The notes beneath the pieces are model-generated. The model saw only the letters and a program-made list of their open reading frames with translations, searched no databases and was not told the DNA's origin. A stretch of 64,000 bases of DNA, from NCBI GenBank assembly GCA_903837345.1, contig CAILUG010000054.1, forward strand, positions 62,001-126,000, read 5' to 3'. This document shows positions 12,834 through 40,178 of this stretch, one piece after another. Within the stretch, counting starts at the first letter, position 1, and each line of letters starts with the position of its first letter. The translations under genes and the position numbers were made by a program. Source of the DNA: an uncultured Gammaproteobacteria bacterium. Lineage in GTDB: Bacteria > Pseudomonadota > Gammaproteobacteria > Pseudomonadales > Pseudohongiellaceae.

Positions 12834-13781
12834 CTATTTCTTCGATTTCAGTTCGTTGTACATCCCTTCCACCAGCACGGTGTTGGTGACACTGCCGGCC
12901 GACCAGCGCGCATCAAACTCGGTGGACGGTTTGTCCGCCTGCACCTGCTCCAGTGTCTTGCCGGCCTTGATGCCGGCCTGGATGCGGTCGCGTATGGTGA
13001 CGAGCATCTTCAGTTGGGCCTGGACATCGCTGCGTTTGCTGACGTCGCCATGGCCTGGCACGAACAGCGTTTTGTCATCGGACATGTCGATCATCTGCTG
13101 ATATACCGCCATGATGCCGAGCACGCTACCGTTGGCCATGGCATCTGCGCGCGGATAACTGACGGTGCGGAACACATCACCGGTCATGATCACGTTGAGA
13201 TCCTTGAACTGCACCATGGAATCGCCATCGGTATGCGATGGCTGCACATGGAATACGTGGATGTCATGACCATTGAAGTGGAAATCCATAGCGTTTTCGT
13301 AAGTAATCACCGGCAAGCTCATGCGTTGTTCGGCAGTGAGCGCCTTGCCGGGATCGTTGTTGGTGAGACCCCCAGCCAGACGTTTGCGCAGATTCTCGTG
13401 CGCAACAATGACAGCGCCACCCTTCGCGAAATTCAGGTTACCGCCGACGTGATCGCCGTGGTAATGGGTGTTGACGATGTAGCGGACAGGCTTGTTGCTG
13501 ATCGCCTTGACGGCAGCAGTGATCTTGTCCGACAGCGGTGCATACTGGTCGTCGACCATGAATACGCCATCATCGCCGGTCAACACGCCGATTTGACCAC
13601 CGGAGCCTTCAAGGTAGTAAAATCCTTCAGCCAGCTTGTTGGTCTTGATCTCGACCTTGCTGAAATCCTGCGGCGGCTGGGCCAGCAGCACTCCGGCACC
13701 CAACAAACCTGCGATCAAAAGTGCTGGCTTGAACAAACGGGCAAGTGTGTTGGTTTGTCTGTTTTTTAACATGATTTTCAT
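12834..13781 (-). CDS. Exported MBL-fold metallo-hydrolase (paralogue A)
   Basis: A 315-residue protein with an N-terminal signal/anchor helix (about residues 14-34) and a metallo-beta-lactamase fold. Zinc ligands are visible in HYHGDHVGG, in the HTDGDS segment, in MTGDVF and in the C-terminal GHGD. The substrate is unknown. It shares layout and a C-terminal LEQVQA-KP motif with the MBL protein at 37030-38040, so the two are paralogues. GGGGGA lies eight bases before the ATG. hisA follows after three bases on the same strand. Confidence 0.82.
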   Translation of the reverse strand: MKIMLKNRQTNTLARLFKPALLIAGLLGAGVLLAQPPQDFSKVEIKTNKLAEGFYYLEGSGGQIGVLTGDDGVFMVDDQYAPLSDKITAAVKAISNKPVRYIVNTHYHGDHVGGNLNFAKGGAVIVAHENLRKRLAGGLTNNDPGKALTAEQRMSLPVITYENAMDFHFNGHDIHVFHVQPSHTDGDSMVQFKDLNVIMTGDVFRTVSYPRADAMANGSVLGIMAVYQQMIDMSDDKTLFVPGHGDVSKRSDVQAQLKMLVTIRDRIQAGIKAGKTLEQVQADKPSTEFDARWSAGSVTNTVLVEGMYNELKSKK

Positions 13782-35222: not shown

Positions 35223-35492
35223 TTGGCCAATACCGTACAAGCCCAGAAGCGTGCAAAACAGGCCGAAAAACGCCGTCAGCACAATGCCAGTTTCCGTTCC
35301 ATGGTTCGCACCTACCTGAAAAAGGTGATTGCAGCCATTGAAACCAAAGACTACGCCGCCGCCAGTGCTGCCTATGTCGAAGCAGTACCTGTTCTCGACC
35401 GCATGGCTGACAAAGGCATAATTCACAAAAACAAGGCTGCGCGTCATAAAAGCCGCCTGAATGCCTCTATTAAAGCCTTGCAGGCCGCCTGA
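35223..35492 (+). CDS. rpsT: 30S ribosomal protein S20
   Basis: An 89-residue S20, the 16S rRNA-binding helical bundle of the small subunit. [12 protein letters not shown] at the start and the [12 protein letters not shown] motif are diagnostic. The start codon is TTG at 35223, eight bases after AGGAG, as in E. coli, where the UUG start takes part in autoregulation. Its last codons are copied four more times downstream as a 23-base tandem array (separate entry). Confidence 0.96.
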
Positions 35493-35586
35493 TCAAAGCC
35501 TTGCAGGCCGCCTGATCAAAGCCTTGCAGGCCGCCTGATCAAAGCCTTGCAGGCCGCTTGATCAAAGCCCTGCAAGCTGGCTGAAT
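35472..35586. repeat. 23-bp tandem array at the 3' end of rpsT
   Basis: Five consecutive 23-base units beginning AAAGCC. The first comprises the last codons and stop of rpsT; units 2 and 3 are identical to it, unit 4 differs at one base, unit 5 is degenerate. The first four each end GATC (35491, 35514, 35537, 35560). Since 23 is not divisible by three, each copy is in a new frame. Confidence 0.95.
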
Positions 35587-35738: not shown

Positions 35739-36146
35739 ATGAAGATATTAAAAAAACTGGCAGTGACCGGTTTGGCGTGTGGCGGGCTGTTCATAACCTT
35801 TTCCGCAGCCCAAGCCCATCACTCGTTTTCAGCCAGCTACGATCTGGAAAAAAAAGTGGAAATCAAAGGCAAGCTGGTGCAGCTTAATTTCCGCAATCCG
35901 CACTCATCGGTGATGGTGATTGCACCTGACGAAAAAGGCGTTGAGCAACGCTGGGGCATCGAGTGGGGTGGAGCCACTGCGCTGGAACGCCAGGGCTTGA
36001 CCCGCGACTCTTTCAAGATAGGTGACGAAGTGATTGTGGTGGGCCAGCCCAGCCGCAATGCCGATGACCATCGCATGCGCATGCAAAGCATCCGGCGCAT
36101 ATCCGACAATTTCGGTTGGGGCCAGAAGGGCGAAAACTTCGATTGA
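35739..36146 (+). CDS. Exported DUF6152-family protein
   Basis: A 135-residue protein with a Sec signal peptide (about residues 1-27, cut near AQA-HHS). The mature part starts HHSFSASYD and has a small beta-rich domain with NPHSSV and GDEVIVVGQPSRN segments, as in DUF6152 proteins common in marine gammaproteobacteria. ATG 35739 is chosen for the signal peptide; the frame is open upstream without family features. It shares a terminator with, and converges on, an operon of three other exported proteins. Function unknown. Confidence 0.82.
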   Translation: MKILKKLAVTGLACGGLFITFSAAQAHHSFSASYDLEKKVEIKGKLVQLNFRNPHSSVMVIAPDEKGVEQRWGIEWGGATALERQGLTRDSFKIGDEVIVVGQPSRNADDHRMRMQSIRRISDNFGWGQKGENFD

Positions 36147-36230
36147 TATCGGGGAATGGCATTTGCGGTGTTCGCAGCAGAACTTCCTGCTGAGCGCTAA
36201 TCACCTGCAAGCCACATTGAAGTCAATACA

Positions 36231-36261
36231 TGAAAAAGCCGGGTTAGACCCGGCTTTTTCA
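36231..36261. terminator. Bidirectional terminator
   Basis: Fourteen-base perfect stem (TGAAAAAGCCGGGT and its complement) with loop TAG, A-run on one side and T-run on the other, serving both the DUF6152 gene and the converging operon that ends at 36278. Confidence 0.9.
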
Positions 36262-36277
36262 TGCTTATGCAATTCAA

Positions 36278-37033
36278 TCAATTTGCGGAGCAGTCACTCG
36301 GATCCCAAAGCTTGCCGGTGGCTTCGCGTTTGAAATTGGTGCTGGTCAGTACCGGCTGTGCCAGATTGGCCGGATCTTCCAGATTGGAAATGATGATCAG
36401 GTACTGGTCACCATTGTCTTCTTTCACCATCTCGTAATATTCAGTCAGCCTGGCACCCTCACCGTAAGGCACACCATTCTTGCGCACATAGCCTGGTGCC
36501 ATCTGGGTGGTAACAACCTCCAGCGAGCCATTCACCACCGGGCCAAACGGCCGCTCACTCTGCAGCTCCCAGCGTGCCTTGGAAACACCCTGCAGAGTGC
36601 CGGCTCCTGCTCCATCCTGGGCGGTGCCGAACTTGAACAAGCGCTTCTGTTTGCCGGCATCAGTTTCAACACTGAGCACATTGTCGCCAGCCCAGGTGAT
36701 GTGCAGGCGGGTCGGCTGACGCATCAGTCCACCGGCACCGTAGGCCTTGCAGACATTACCAGTGGCAATGTCCCTGGCAGGGTCCCATGCGTTGGCCAGT
36801 TTCTGGGCCGCCGTTGTGAGATTGATGCCAGGATAATCACCCGCCTTGGCAGTCAGCATGCGGTAACGCCAGTCTTCAGTGACCACCGCCACCCAGTAGC
36901 CGGTCAGATCATGGGGAGCCGCTGCCTTGGCGGTGGCCGGACCCTGCGGCGCCGGGGCTGGTGGTTGCGCCACAGCAATACCCGCATACAGTCCCAGCGC
37001 AATTGCGAATCGGTACAATTTCATCATGGTCAT
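36278..37033 (-). CDS. Exported protein of unknown family, third gene of MBL operon
   Basis: A 251-residue protein with a signal peptide (about residues 1-22), a proline/alanine linker and a mature domain opening LTGYWVAVVTEDWRYRM. This opening parallels LAGVWTGTYSEDWPDRF in the protein at 38040-38903, so the two mature domains may be distant relatives. Start overlaps the MBL gene stop by ATGA. It ends CSAN with a single late cysteine. I do not recognise a function. Confidence 0.72.
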   Translation of the reverse strand: MTMMKLYRFAIALGLYAGIAVAQPPAPAPQGPATAKAAAPHDLTGYWVAVVTEDWRYRMLTAKAGDYPGINLTTAAQKLANAWDPARDIATGNVCKAYGAGGLMRQPTRLHITWAGDNVLSVETDAGKQKRLFKFGTAQDGAGAGTLQGVSKARWELQSERPFGPVVNGSLEVVTTQMAPGYVRKNGVPYGEGARLTEYYEMVKEDNGDQYLIIISNLEDPANLAQPVLTSTNFKREATGKLWDPSDCSAN

Positions 37034-38040
37034 TTACCCTGGGGAGCGCTGAGGTTTTTGTAGGCCGCTTCCACAAACTGCCTGGTGGTCCAGAAACCGC
37101 TGCTGGATCCCCAACGCGGGTCATAGTCAGCCGTCGGCTTGGCGGCCTGCACCTGCTCCAGCGTCATGCCTTTCCTGATCAAGTCCTGGATACGATCACG
37201 GATGATCGTCAGCATCTCACGATAGTTGATCACATCACCTATATCACTCAGCCGGCCATGACCGGGAATCACCAGCGTGCCGCCATCCTGGCCATAAACC
37301 GGAATGATCAGATCGATGATGTTATTGGCGGCTGCGATGATGCCCTGGATGCTGCCGCCATTGGCGATATCGATGAACGGATACTGGTTGGACACATACA
37401 CATCGCCGGCAGCAATCACATCGGACTGCCGGAAATAAACAATGCTGTCACCATCGGTGTGGGCATTGGGTTCATGCATGATGCGAATGCCTTCACCGTT
37501 GAACCACAGATCCTTTTTCGGGGTGAAATAAGTCAAGGTAGGCAGCGCAGCTGAAGCTATGGCCGGCTGTCCCGCCGGAGGTGATGACATGTGCAACAGG
37601 GCATTCTCGTGCGCGATGATCTGGGCTCCGGCACCTGCATCGGAGATGTCGCCACCAACGTTGCCACCCGACACCGTCATACCGGCCGCTCTCAGATTGG
37701 CATTGCCGCCGACATGGTCGGCGTGATGATGGGTATCAATGATGTAGCGGATCGGGCCTTTGGAAAGCTCACGGATCTTGCCAAGAATCCGGTCTGACAA
37801 TTCCGCATATTGGGTATCAACAATCAAGACGCCATCGCTGCCGATTTGCACGGTGATGTTGCCGCCGGAACCCACCAGCATGTAGATGTTGTCGCGCACT
37901 TTCAGCGCTTCAATCTTCACTTTGGAAAAATCCTGTTGCTGGGCATGACTGCCACTCGCCAGCAACACACCCAATGCCACCAGCAAACCACGTTTGCAAA
38001 TTCCGGAAACAGATAAGGATTGCATCGTCTTCGTCTCCAT
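37030..38040 (-). CDS. Exported MBL-fold metallo-hydrolase (paralogue B)
   Basis: A 336-residue secreted metallo-beta-lactamase-fold protein: signal peptide (about 1-33), then zinc motifs THHHADHVGG, the histidine of EPNAHTDGDS, an aspartate in AAGDVY and the histidine of PGHGRLS. Its C-terminal LEQVQAAKP motif is shared with the MBL protein at 12834-13781. It sits in the middle of a translationally coupled three-gene operon (TAATG and ATGA overlaps). Substrate unknown; quinoprotein-relay SoxH-like or lactonase-like roles are possible. Confidence 0.82.
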   Translation of the reverse strand: METKTMQSLSVSGICKRGLLVALGVLLASGSHAQQQDFSKVKIEALKVRDNIYMLVGSGGNITVQIGSDGVLIVDTQYAELSDRILGKIRELSKGPIRYIIDTHHHADHVGGNANLRAAGMTVSGGNVGGDISDAGAGAQIIAHENALLHMSSPPAGQPAIASAALPTLTYFTPKKDLWFNGEGIRIMHEPNAHTDGDSIVYFRQSDVIAAGDVYVSNQYPFIDIANGGSIQGIIAAANNIIDLIIPVYGQDGGTLVIPGHGRLSDIGDVINYREMLTIIRDRIQDLIRKGMTLEQVQAAKPTADYDPRWGSSSGFWTTRQFVEAAYKNLSAPQGK

Positions 38041-38903
38041 TAACGTGGCGGGGGAACGGGCAGCGAACGGATCACCTTCATGTATTCCGGATACATGGTG
38101 GCGGCGCCGCCCATGGCTGCCTTGTAGGGAATACCATGGGTTTCAGCGAAGATTTTCACATCTTCATTGGTACCTGGCAGATGATGGGGGATGTAGCCGG
38201 GTGCACGCACCATTTCCACCACACTCTCACACGAATAGTTGGCCACCTGGTTGTCGACACTGTACTTGTAGTCGCGATTGCGGATGAACGGCTCCTCCAG
38301 ATAGACCGGATCATTCACCACTACCGTCCAGGTCAGGATGTCACCATGGCGGATGAAATGCTCGGTGACGCTGGCCTTGTCACTGCGGGCGGCACCATTG
38401 CGTCGCAACCAGCCTTCTTTCAGATGTGTGGTGTGTATAGTCAGCACCTGTCCGTCCCATTGGCCGGTGGAGAAGCCCATGGAAGTGTGTTGCGCGTACT
38501 CCGGCGGATGTTCACGCCCGTCCATCCAGATGGTGCGACGGGTTTGCCACGCAAAATGCTGCAGATGCAAAGCAATGAGTTTTTCGGTGACCGGATCGCG
38601 TTCTTCCCAGATACGGATATCGGCAAAACTGTTGGCGTAGTCGGAGGGATGCACGCGGCACTGGTATTCCGGCAACGCAATCAGCGAAGCACTCCAGCTC
38701 AAAGCCCGCATGCGATCGGCATCGTTGATCGGCAAACCGCCATAATCTCCCAATTCAGGGCCGGGGAAACGGTCAGGCCAGTCTTCGGAATAAGTGCCAG
38801 TCCATACACCGGCAAGATTTTTCTCTGCCAGGGCTGCAGATGTCAGCAGGCAGCCGAGAACTGCGGTCGCAAGCAACAGCACACCGCGGATGGGTGAATT
38901 CAT
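38040..38903 (-). CDS. Exported protein of unknown family, first gene of MBL operon
   Basis: A 287-residue protein with a signal peptide ending near AALA. The mature part opens LAGVWTGTYSEDW and includes a conserved-looking HTSMGFSTGQWDG and HLKEGWLRRNG stretch, which resembles lipocalin-like exported proteins found in clusters of marine gammaproteobacteria. ATG 38903 is chosen over a TTG eight codons upstream; AGGGGG lies upstream. Its stop overlaps the MBL start (TAATG). Confidence 0.72.
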   Translation of the reverse strand: MNSPIRGVLLLATAVLGCLLTSAALAEKNLAGVWTGTYSEDWPDRFPGPELGDYGGLPINDADRMRALSWSASLIALPEYQCRVHPSDYANSFADIRIWEERDPVTEKLIALHLQHFAWQTRRTIWMDGREHPPEYAQHTSMGFSTGQWDGQVLTIHTTHLKEGWLRRNGAARSDKASVTEHFIRHGDILTWTVVVNDPVYLEEPFIRNRDYKYSVDNQVANYSCESVVEMVRAPGYIPHHLPGTNEDVKIFAETHGIPYKAAMGGAATMYPEYMKVIRSLPVPPPR

Positions 38904-39056: not shown

Positions 39057-40178
39057 TTACAAAAGTGCCAGATTGTCGCGATGGATCAGCTCATGCTCAC
39101 CTTCGTAACCCAGAATGACGGTTATCTGCTCGCTTGGTTTGCCGAGAATAAGCGTGGTTTCTTCTGAATCGTAATTGACCAGCCCGTGTGCAATGGCCTT
39201 GCCGTTTTCATCGTGACATGCCACCAGATCGCCGCGCTTGAAATGGCCACTGACTGACTTCACTCCCACTGGCAGCAAACTCTTGCCGGAACCGGTCAGC
39301 ACCTTCACAGCGCCCCGGTCCAGCACCAGAATGCCGCACACTTGCAGATGGCTGGCCAGCCATTGCTTGCGGGCTGCTATCGGCTGTTTGTCAGGCAACA
39401 ACAAAGTCCCCAGCACTGCGCCACTCTGCAGTGCCACCAGCACGTCTGGCGAGCTGCCATGCACGATGCACGTGGCCGTGCCGGAACGTGAAGCCAGTCG
39501 GGCTGCCCTGATCTTGGTCACCATGCCGCCCTTGCCCAGCGCCCCGCCGCCACCCGCCACTGCCATCAGCATTTCATCATGACTGCTGGCTTCGCTGATC
39601 AGCCTGGCTTCGGCATTGCTGCGCGGATCGGCATCAAACACACCTTGCTGGTCTGTCAGAATCACCAATACATCGGCATTGATGAGGTTGGCCACCAGCG
39701 CAGCCAGCGTATCGTTGTCACCAAAACAGATTTCATCGGTAACTACGGTATCGTTTTCATTGATGACCGGAATCACCTTCATGTCCAGCAAGGCGCGCAG
39801 CGTTGAGCGCGCATTCAGGTAACGTTTGCGGTTGGACAGGTCGTCGTGGGTGAGCAGGATCTGGGCAGTGTGTTTGCCGAATTTCTTGAACTGGGATTCG
39901 TAGGCCTGGATCAGGCCCATCTGGCCTACCGCTGCTGCTGCCTGCTGTTCATGGATGGCAGTGGGTCGTCCAGGCAGGCCCAGCCGGCTGACGCCTTCTG
40001 CAACGGCTCCTGAAGAGACCAGCACCACATCCAGGCCCTGATCCTGCAATTGGCATATCTGCTTGCCCCAGCGGGCGATGCTGTCGAGGTTGAGCCCCCT
40101 GCCATTGTCTGTCAGCAGGGAACTGCCAATCTTGATCACCCAGGTACGAGCTGTCTTGAGAAGATCACGTTTGCCCAT
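39057..40178 (-). CDS. proB: Glutamate 5-kinase with PUA domain
   Basis: A 373-residue enzyme for the first step of proline synthesis, phosphorylating glutamate. The amino-acid kinase domain has [25 protein letters not shown] and GGMVTKI. The C-terminal PUA domain (about residues 275-365) is the usual one in proteobacterial ProB. It follows obgE by three bases. proA is not in the window. Confidence 0.95.

Follow-up and report, generated by a model that had tools for sequence, protein, structure and literature searches.

A conserved P4-MBL-P2 gene cassette with a DUF6152 neighbour, recurring in Gammaproteobacteria and Acidobacteriota

The window analysed here is a stretch of 64,000 nucleotides from an uncultured gammaproteobacterium of the family Pseudohongiellaceae (assembly GCA_903837345.1, contig CAILUG010000054.1, positions 62,001 to 126,000), and the subject is a cassette of four genes lying in it between rpsT (35223..35492, plus strand) and proB (39057..40178, minus strand). 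Three of them form an operon on the minus strand in the order P4, MBL, P2. The first gene, P4 (38040..38903), encodes a protein of 287 amino acids (aa) with a predicted calycin-like beta-barrel (mature residues 1-191) and a helical tail; MBL (37030..38040) encodes a metallo-beta-lactamase-fold protein of 336 aa; and P2 (36278..37033) encodes a protein of 251 aa, homologous to P4, which partners MBL in other genomes as well. The unnamed family of P2 and P4 is called "EDW" here for convenience. The P4/MBL junction reads TAATG (1-base overlap) and the MBL/P2 junction ATGA (4-base overlap), as had been stated for a coupled three-gene operon in a preliminary description made from the sequence alone. 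The fourth gene (35739..36146, plus strand) is convergent with the operon, lies outside it, and encodes a DUF6152 protein of 135 aa with a predicted OB fold, whose predicted mature form (35817-36143) starts with His-His. The four open reading frames (ORFs) reported earlier between rpsT and proB are all present, and all four N-termini are signal-peptide-like; here and below, export calls and mature N-termini reflect a visual judgement of such N-termini. A scan for promoters and terminators gave results near background.

The ratios of nonsynonymous to synonymous substitution rates (Ka/Ks), calculated against orthologues from two same-genus genomes, were 0.04-0.10 for all four genes (about 0.07 for MBL), which indicates functional genes under strong purifying selection and rules out chance ORFs. 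A second full cassette was found on contig C56, with identities of 45% for P2, 49% for MBL, and 48% for P4; DUF6152 is encoded there on the same strand as the trio. The gene at 12834..13781 (minus strand), previously put forward as a second copy of the cassette MBL, is a lone paralogue with zinc motifs present and 43% identity to it; neither P2 nor P4 adjoins it, and a second cassette at that position was ruled out. To characterise the insertion site, proB was sought in 13 relatives and matched in 12 (none in G008). In eight of them (G002, G003, and G009 of the same genus, and G012, G019, G023, G013, and G014), rpsT directly adjoins proB without a cassette. Genome G006 has a cassette at this site, G010 has another gene there, and in G001 and G005 the contig ends. 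Genome G007 and five genomes from a second genus have the cassette with proB and obgE alongside. With rpsT and proB contiguous in 8 of the 13 relatives, presence of the cassette at this position is optional, and the "conserved locus" of the preliminary description applies to the flanking rpsT and proB but not to the cassette itself. A tandem repeat of 4.5 units of 23 bases each (35472-35574) borders the cassette on its left; the repeated sequence is the 3' end of rpsT with its stop codon, and two 10-base words taken from the unit were missing or occurred once in five related stretches that were compared. The repeat is possibly an insertion scar, or simple slippage.

A search with P4 in 95 related genomes, including the one studied, returned matches at E 1e-30 in 18 genomes belonging to three genera of one family, and none in the 36 genomes of other families searched. 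Each of five genomes examined from one genus carries 9-12 copies of P4. The 73 match rows comprised 2 in the genome studied, 7 left unfetched, and 64 located in 60 stretches; as all loci were selected by P4, this gene is present by construction. P4 and MBL occur together in 51 of the 60 stretches, the complete trio in 49, and the trio with DUF6152 in 24. Eleven stretches are without MBL or P2, two of them (L122 and L175) at contig ends; the other nine are L138, L141, L144, L145, L148, L149, L150, L152, and L155, some of which have neighbours in common, and the L145 stretch ends about 1.1 kb downstream of P4. In a contig scan of the genomes of 84,980 species with alignment A1 (21 of 25 representatives) as the query, the best 80 loci, many of them on short contigs, came, to judge by their titles, mostly from Acidobacteriota and Gammaproteobacteria, with P4 and MBL in 71, the trio in 47, and DUF6152 in 18. 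Genes were tagged from all ORFs and by homology, with tag thresholds that differ between the 60-stretch and 80-locus sets. The 126 non-redundant P4 loci include 108 with P4 and MBL, 83 with the trio, 37 with DUF6152, and 20 in which P4 and MBL form one ORF. Gene order is variable (P4-MBL-P2, MBL-P2-P4, and P4-P2-MBL), and 209 of 211 adjacent core gene pairs (duplicates included) are on the same strand. Across 75 unfused trio loci, protein distances were correlated with r values of 0.86 (P4-MBL), 0.75 (P4-P2), and 0.71 (MBL-P2), the maximum of 999 permutations being 0.15; vertical descent contributes to this correlation. Since paralogous loci within a single genome are numerous in this set, duplication of the trio as a whole also seems to be involved. 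The P4-MBL-P2 system is real and conserved, and the co-occurrence of its genes in other genomes, on which the preliminary description had staked its proposal, survives in the 126 loci. As a conserved module, the cassette is shared by members of the Gammaproteobacteria and Acidobacteriota, with many copies in some bacteria, and it is undescribed in the literature searched. One fused P4-MBL locus (L220) comes from a record titled as a Bordetella parapertussis metagenome-assembled genome, an unexpected carrier and perhaps a misnamed bin.

Sequence comparison places P2 and P4 in one homologous family, since a P4-based profile, when extended over the fetched stretches of the genome, came to cover 49 proteins, namely P4, P2, and 47 others. 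Alignment A6 of this family contains 49 domain rows from 48 proteins, the very weak member L082_5926 having been left out. The E-D-W residues are at least 90% conserved in 50 P2 proteins, and E-D, without the W, in 59 P4 proteins. The opening V-EDW-like motif noticed earlier in both proteins was thus borne out as a reflection of their homology, with the W conserved in P2 only. Residues C90, G151, and D206 are invariant in A6 and C233 is nearly so, which suggests a disulfide. Neither P2 nor P4 has a Pfam or NCBIfam match at E<=1, in keeping with the earlier statement that these exported-looking proteins have no assigned function; none of the 49 A6 rows matches Pfam at E 0.01, and the P4 profile has no PDB sequence match at E 1. 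Proteins of the EDW type are common in Acidobacteria and are not known to carry a family name. A 506-aa protein with two tandem EDW domains was observed at L065:4208-9014, followed by DUF6152, an EDW protein, DUF6152, and a below-cut-off DUF6644 match.

The structure of mature P4 was modelled from 73 sequences (72 of 84 available locus rows and the window sequence) with a predicted local distance difference test (pLDDT) value of 91.2. The best Foldseek match of the model was UnaG (E 7e-4), followed by a tardigrade SAHS protein and the CRBP and FABP barrels, and VIA matches over residues 1-191 included NanoLuc (Z 8.3) and CRBP1 (Z 8.0; 116 residues, 3.3 A). A calycin-type (FABP/lipocalin) arrangement of P4 is moderately supported by this predicted model, in which barrel matches have Z near 8 with low template modelling (TM) scores by query length and the C-terminal part is barely covered. 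The predicted topology of residues 1-191 resembles that of calycin barrels such as fatty-acid- and retinol-binding proteins, UnaG, NanoLuc, and avidins, at less than 20% identity among the matches listed. Unlike the named calycins, P4 is bacterial and exported-looking, has extra C-terminal helices, and belongs to the EDW family with its invariant and nearly invariant cysteines.

The MBL protein scored 43.9 bits against the Pfam family Lactamase_B (PF00753), above the gathering threshold of 22.7. All seven zinc ligands were located by alignment (H104, H106, D108, H109, H194, D213, and H261), corresponding to the two-zinc set HxHxDH, H, D, H. Its single PDB sequence match at E<=1e-10 was 8d2z (E 7e-13), a code for which only two unrelated papers turned up in the literature searched. 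The nearest named model, TIGR04559 (SoxH-related quinoprotein relay zinc metallohydrolase 2), gave 80.7 bits, short of its curated threshold of 280, and by this model MBL is therefore not a member of that family. The NCBIfam MBL models were all below their cut-offs among the 25 of 55 matches listed. A beta-lactamase identity was rejected on the same listing, in which the best class B beta-lactamase model, NF012229 (bla_class_B_core), reached 47.6 bits against a cut-off of 100. The window MBL thus has the fold, HxHxDH motif, and seven zinc ligands in common with metallo-beta-lactamase superfamily hydrolases, of which TIGR04559 is the nearest; unlike TIGR04559-type hydrolases, it is paired, or in other cassettes fused, with the barrel protein P4. 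The whole genome contains 14 MBL-like matches.

The DUF6152 protein scored 82.7 bits against PF19649, above the gathering threshold of 27. Its mature form was modelled from 21 sequences (pLDDT 90.4) as an OB fold, with the five-stranded barrel and the helix between strands 3 and 4 found in the predicted model. The best structural matches were PriB and SSB proteins, with a top Z of 9.3 to PriB over 81 residues; LPMO-, CopC-, and cupredoxin-like folds are not among the matches listed, which excludes none of them. DUF6152 has the predicted fold in common with PriB and SSB but, unlike them, is exported-looking and carries a conserved His-His and an NPH motif, and the window protein has no PDB sequence match. 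In all 40 DUF6152 copies of this genome, the signal-peptide-like segment ends in Ala or Ser immediately followed by His-His, and a further His occupies the NPH position (exact NPH in 37). The arrangement of His-His after Ala or Ser recurs in all 31 proteins examined from 29 diverse loci and in all three plasmid copies. Each of the 21 sequences of alignment A2 has the His-His pair, with Ala before it in 19 and Pro in the other 2, where cleavage is doubtful. DUF6152 is the N-terminal domain in all ten EDW fusions, so its N-terminus stays free. The predicted first-residue His and the conserved internal His are candidate elements of a histidine brace and resemble those of N-terminal-histidine metalloproteins (CopC, lytic polysaccharide monooxygenases (LPMOs), DUF4198, and DUF6702; PMC12537917); unlike them, DUF6152 has a predicted OB fold. 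According to PMC12537917, N-terminal-His DUFs bind nickel and other metals. The main text of PMC12537917 does not contain "6152". The predicted mature His-His suggests that DUF6152 probably binds a metal ion, with copper or nickel as first guesses. No mention of DUF6152, PF19649, DUF6644, PF20349, or SCE4755 was found in the literature searched.

DUF6152 and EDW domains are greatly expanded in this genome, with about 90 domains in 3.26 Mb. In total, 40 DUF6152 domains, all above the Pfam cut-off, and 54 EDW-profile match rows (about 52 domains once two split domains were joined) were found. Ten of the DUF6152 domains are fused to EDW, 27 lie within 1 kb of EDW, and 3 stand apart; the window copy is the exception among the 27, the other 26 being on the same strand as their EDW neighbour. 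Conversely, 44 of 50 EDW domains lie no more than 1 kb from DUF6152, as counted in stretches around DUF6152 or P4 matches; outside these stretches, EDW occurs at C62:23687 and C10:41482, with a partial match at C60:52276. In the phylum, DUF6152 was found in 31 of 299 genomes including the one studied (at least 16 copies counted there), mostly as one copy and at most as eight in any other. Among 57 relatives, the three P4-bearing genera carry from 18 to at least 71 DUF6152 and from 26 to at least 48 EDW domains, and five other genera of the family carry 1-3 DUF6152 and 5-29 EDW domains, which shows that EDW is not strictly tied to DUF6152. Outside the family, a single DUF6152 copy was found in 1 of 21 genomes and one weak EDW match in 1 of 21. 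The preliminary description had missed this genome-wide expansion, as well as the homology of P2 and P4, the optional presence of the cassette at its site, and the solitary status of the gene at 12834. Genes copied so often probably matter for which organic molecules their carriers can use.

Two plasmids from Alphaproteobacteria, one of Novosphingobium and one of Croceibacterium, likewise carry the EDW-DUF6152 pair. A plasmid search with the window DUF6152 gave no match, though two plasmids carry annotated DUF6152 genes, so this search misses divergent copies; P4 gave three weak, partial matches, and MBL matched 127 records, all below 60% identity, those annotated among the 25 listed being MBL-fold hydrolases. 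On the Croceibacterium plasmid (L302:4754-8953), two DUF6152 genes and an EDW gene are followed by a TonB-dependent receptor. Pairs of DUF6644 genes were observed near DUF6152/EDW genes at L079:6311-7378 and L301:2828-3803, including the Novosphingobium plasmid, and DUF6644 proteins are a possible membrane partner of DUF6152/EDW.

The genes around the cassettes were compared as 130 nearest proteins (70 loci) and 127 proteins further out (75 loci), with 18 near-duplicate loci skipped. Among the 25 inner families listed were SnoaL_2 (9), Glyoxalase/VOC (6), Amidohydro_1 (5), Tannase (4), COesterase (4), Abhydrolase_3 (4), and FAA_hydrolase (3). The 25 outer families listed (lowest count 2) are led by PQQ (5) and contain Abhydrolase_3 (2), while SnoaL_2, Glyoxalase, Amidohydro_1, Tannase, COesterase, and FAA_hydrolase are not listed there.

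From the features observed by computation (the genes and their coupling, P2/P4 homology, co-occurrence, fusion, copy expansion, the window zinc ligands, and His-His), we favour, with somewhat less than even confidence, a reading of P4-MBL-P2 as an exported module that would capture and hydrolyse small hydrophobic molecules. The homologous calycin-like barrels of P4 and P2 would bind such a molecule, the MBL would be held beside P4, sometimes in the same chain, and its zinc site would hydrolyse an ester, lactone, or similar bond in the bound molecule, the product then entering catabolism. DUF6152 would be a separate exported OB-fold metal binder that goes with EDW barrels genome-wide and is a convergent neighbour in the window cassette. 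Points counted for this capture and hydrolysis are the co-occurrence, the shared strand of nearly all adjacent core pairs, the 20 fusions, the P4-MBL correlation of 0.86, the copy number, the Ka/Ks values, the window zinc site, the resemblance of the P4 model to lipid and retinoid binders, and the inner neighbours. A number of results weigh against it. In a census of 116 non-redundant MBLs from the cassette stretches (window excluded; 7 incomplete at a ligand column), the 109 complete proteins comprise 61 with seven ligands, one with six, and 47 with at most five; among the fused P4-MBL proteins with complete MBL domains, ligands are intact in 2 of 18 and lost in 16 of 18. The losses are plain in the motif itself (e.g., THHHGDH versus TSADADL) and do not look like misalignment. 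As ligands are lost in 48 of 109 MBLs, hydrolysis cannot be a function common to all cassettes, and to judge from the motifs the MBL fold of some cassettes works without the chemistry typical of it. Furthermore, in 9 of the 60 loci a P4 that is not truncated stands without MBL or P2; P4 resembles its structural matches modestly (Z about 8; no TM value by query length above 0.34 among the 50 matches listed), Z near 8 can reflect a common arrangement, and a shared fold shows no ligand. The outer neighbours also include degradative or redox proteins (PQQ 5, aldehyde dehydrogenase 3, SGL 3), the inner counts are inflated by related loci, and residues 1-3 of DUF6152 are disordered (pLDDT <50) in the metal-free model, so no preformed metal site is visible there. 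The fused MBL domains (20 loci, e.g., L164, L170, L196, and L205) are mostly apparent pseudo-hydrolases.

Binding-only and metal-centred roles are serious rivals to capture and hydrolysis. The persistence of the P4-MBL pair despite these ligand losses, together with barrels that far outnumber MBL-like proteins in the genome (about 52 EDW domains versus 14 matches) and mostly have no adjoining MBL, would fit a module that stores, carries, or senses a hydrophobic molecule, with the MBL fold mainly a partner surface or ligand pocket and catalysis incidental and repeatedly lost. We consider this unlikely on balance, though not markedly so, because the full set of seven ligands is retained in the window MBL and 61 others, the window gene is under strong constraint, and the losses cluster in fused and divergent lineages. 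Alternatively, the system could serve metal handling or metal redox chemistry, with DUF6152 as an N-terminal-His copper or nickel metalloprotein, the barrels presenting substrate or carrying chelated metal, and the MBL as an accessory. The His-His after the predicted signal peptide, the constant His at the NPH position, the free N-terminus in the fusions, and the metal binding of N-terminal-His DUFs reported in PMC12537917 argue for such a role; we nevertheless rate it as rather improbable, since DUF6152 is encoded in only 37 of the 126 cassette stretches, is convergent and not co-operonic in the window, has Pro before His-His in two aligned copies, and numbers only 1-3 in five family genera with 5-29 barrels. 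Envelope detoxification of an environmental toxin or antibiotic, e.g., a lactone or beta-lactam-like compound, is consistent with the MBL superfamily, the optional presence at a fixed site, and the patchy distribution; with the beta-lactamase models among the 25 of 55 matches listed all below cut-off, the listed neighbour families mostly catabolic, and no resistance family among the 25 listed, it is very improbable. The "degradation or detoxification" of the preliminary description agrees with the complete set of zinc ligands in the window MBL, the ligand-binding-type barrel, and the catabolic inner neighbours, and is weakened by the zinc-ligand loss in many MBLs. As a broader and doubtful proposal, DUF6152 and the EDW family together might constitute a modular exported catalyst, in which an EDW barrel would hold a hydrophobic substrate attacked by a partner, either the DUF6152 OB-fold domain with its N-terminal-His copper or nickel site or the cassette MBL; tens of copies would be tuned to different substrates, and the MBL branch would repeatedly have become non-catalytic. 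Ligand, metal, and activity are open to direct, cheap tests through the fusions, the pairing of partners, and the N-terminal His that is predicted to be free.

Genome-wide, the neighbours of DUF6152/EDW genes (111 of 138 proteins, no control set) included Cytochrome_CBB3 (8), PQQ (6), SnoaL_4 (5), Lactamase_B (5), and Abhydrolase_3 (4). Single cassette neighbours included an HpaB-like oxygenase and a styrene-monooxygenase-type flavin reductase, neither of which reached its curated cut-off. An SCE4755 polysaccharide-monooxygenase-like protein, above the cut-off and with a His after the signal-like start by eye, is encoded at L132:5063-5689 upstream of a P4-MBL-P2-MBL cluster, and similar proteins occur at L133, L134, and L136.

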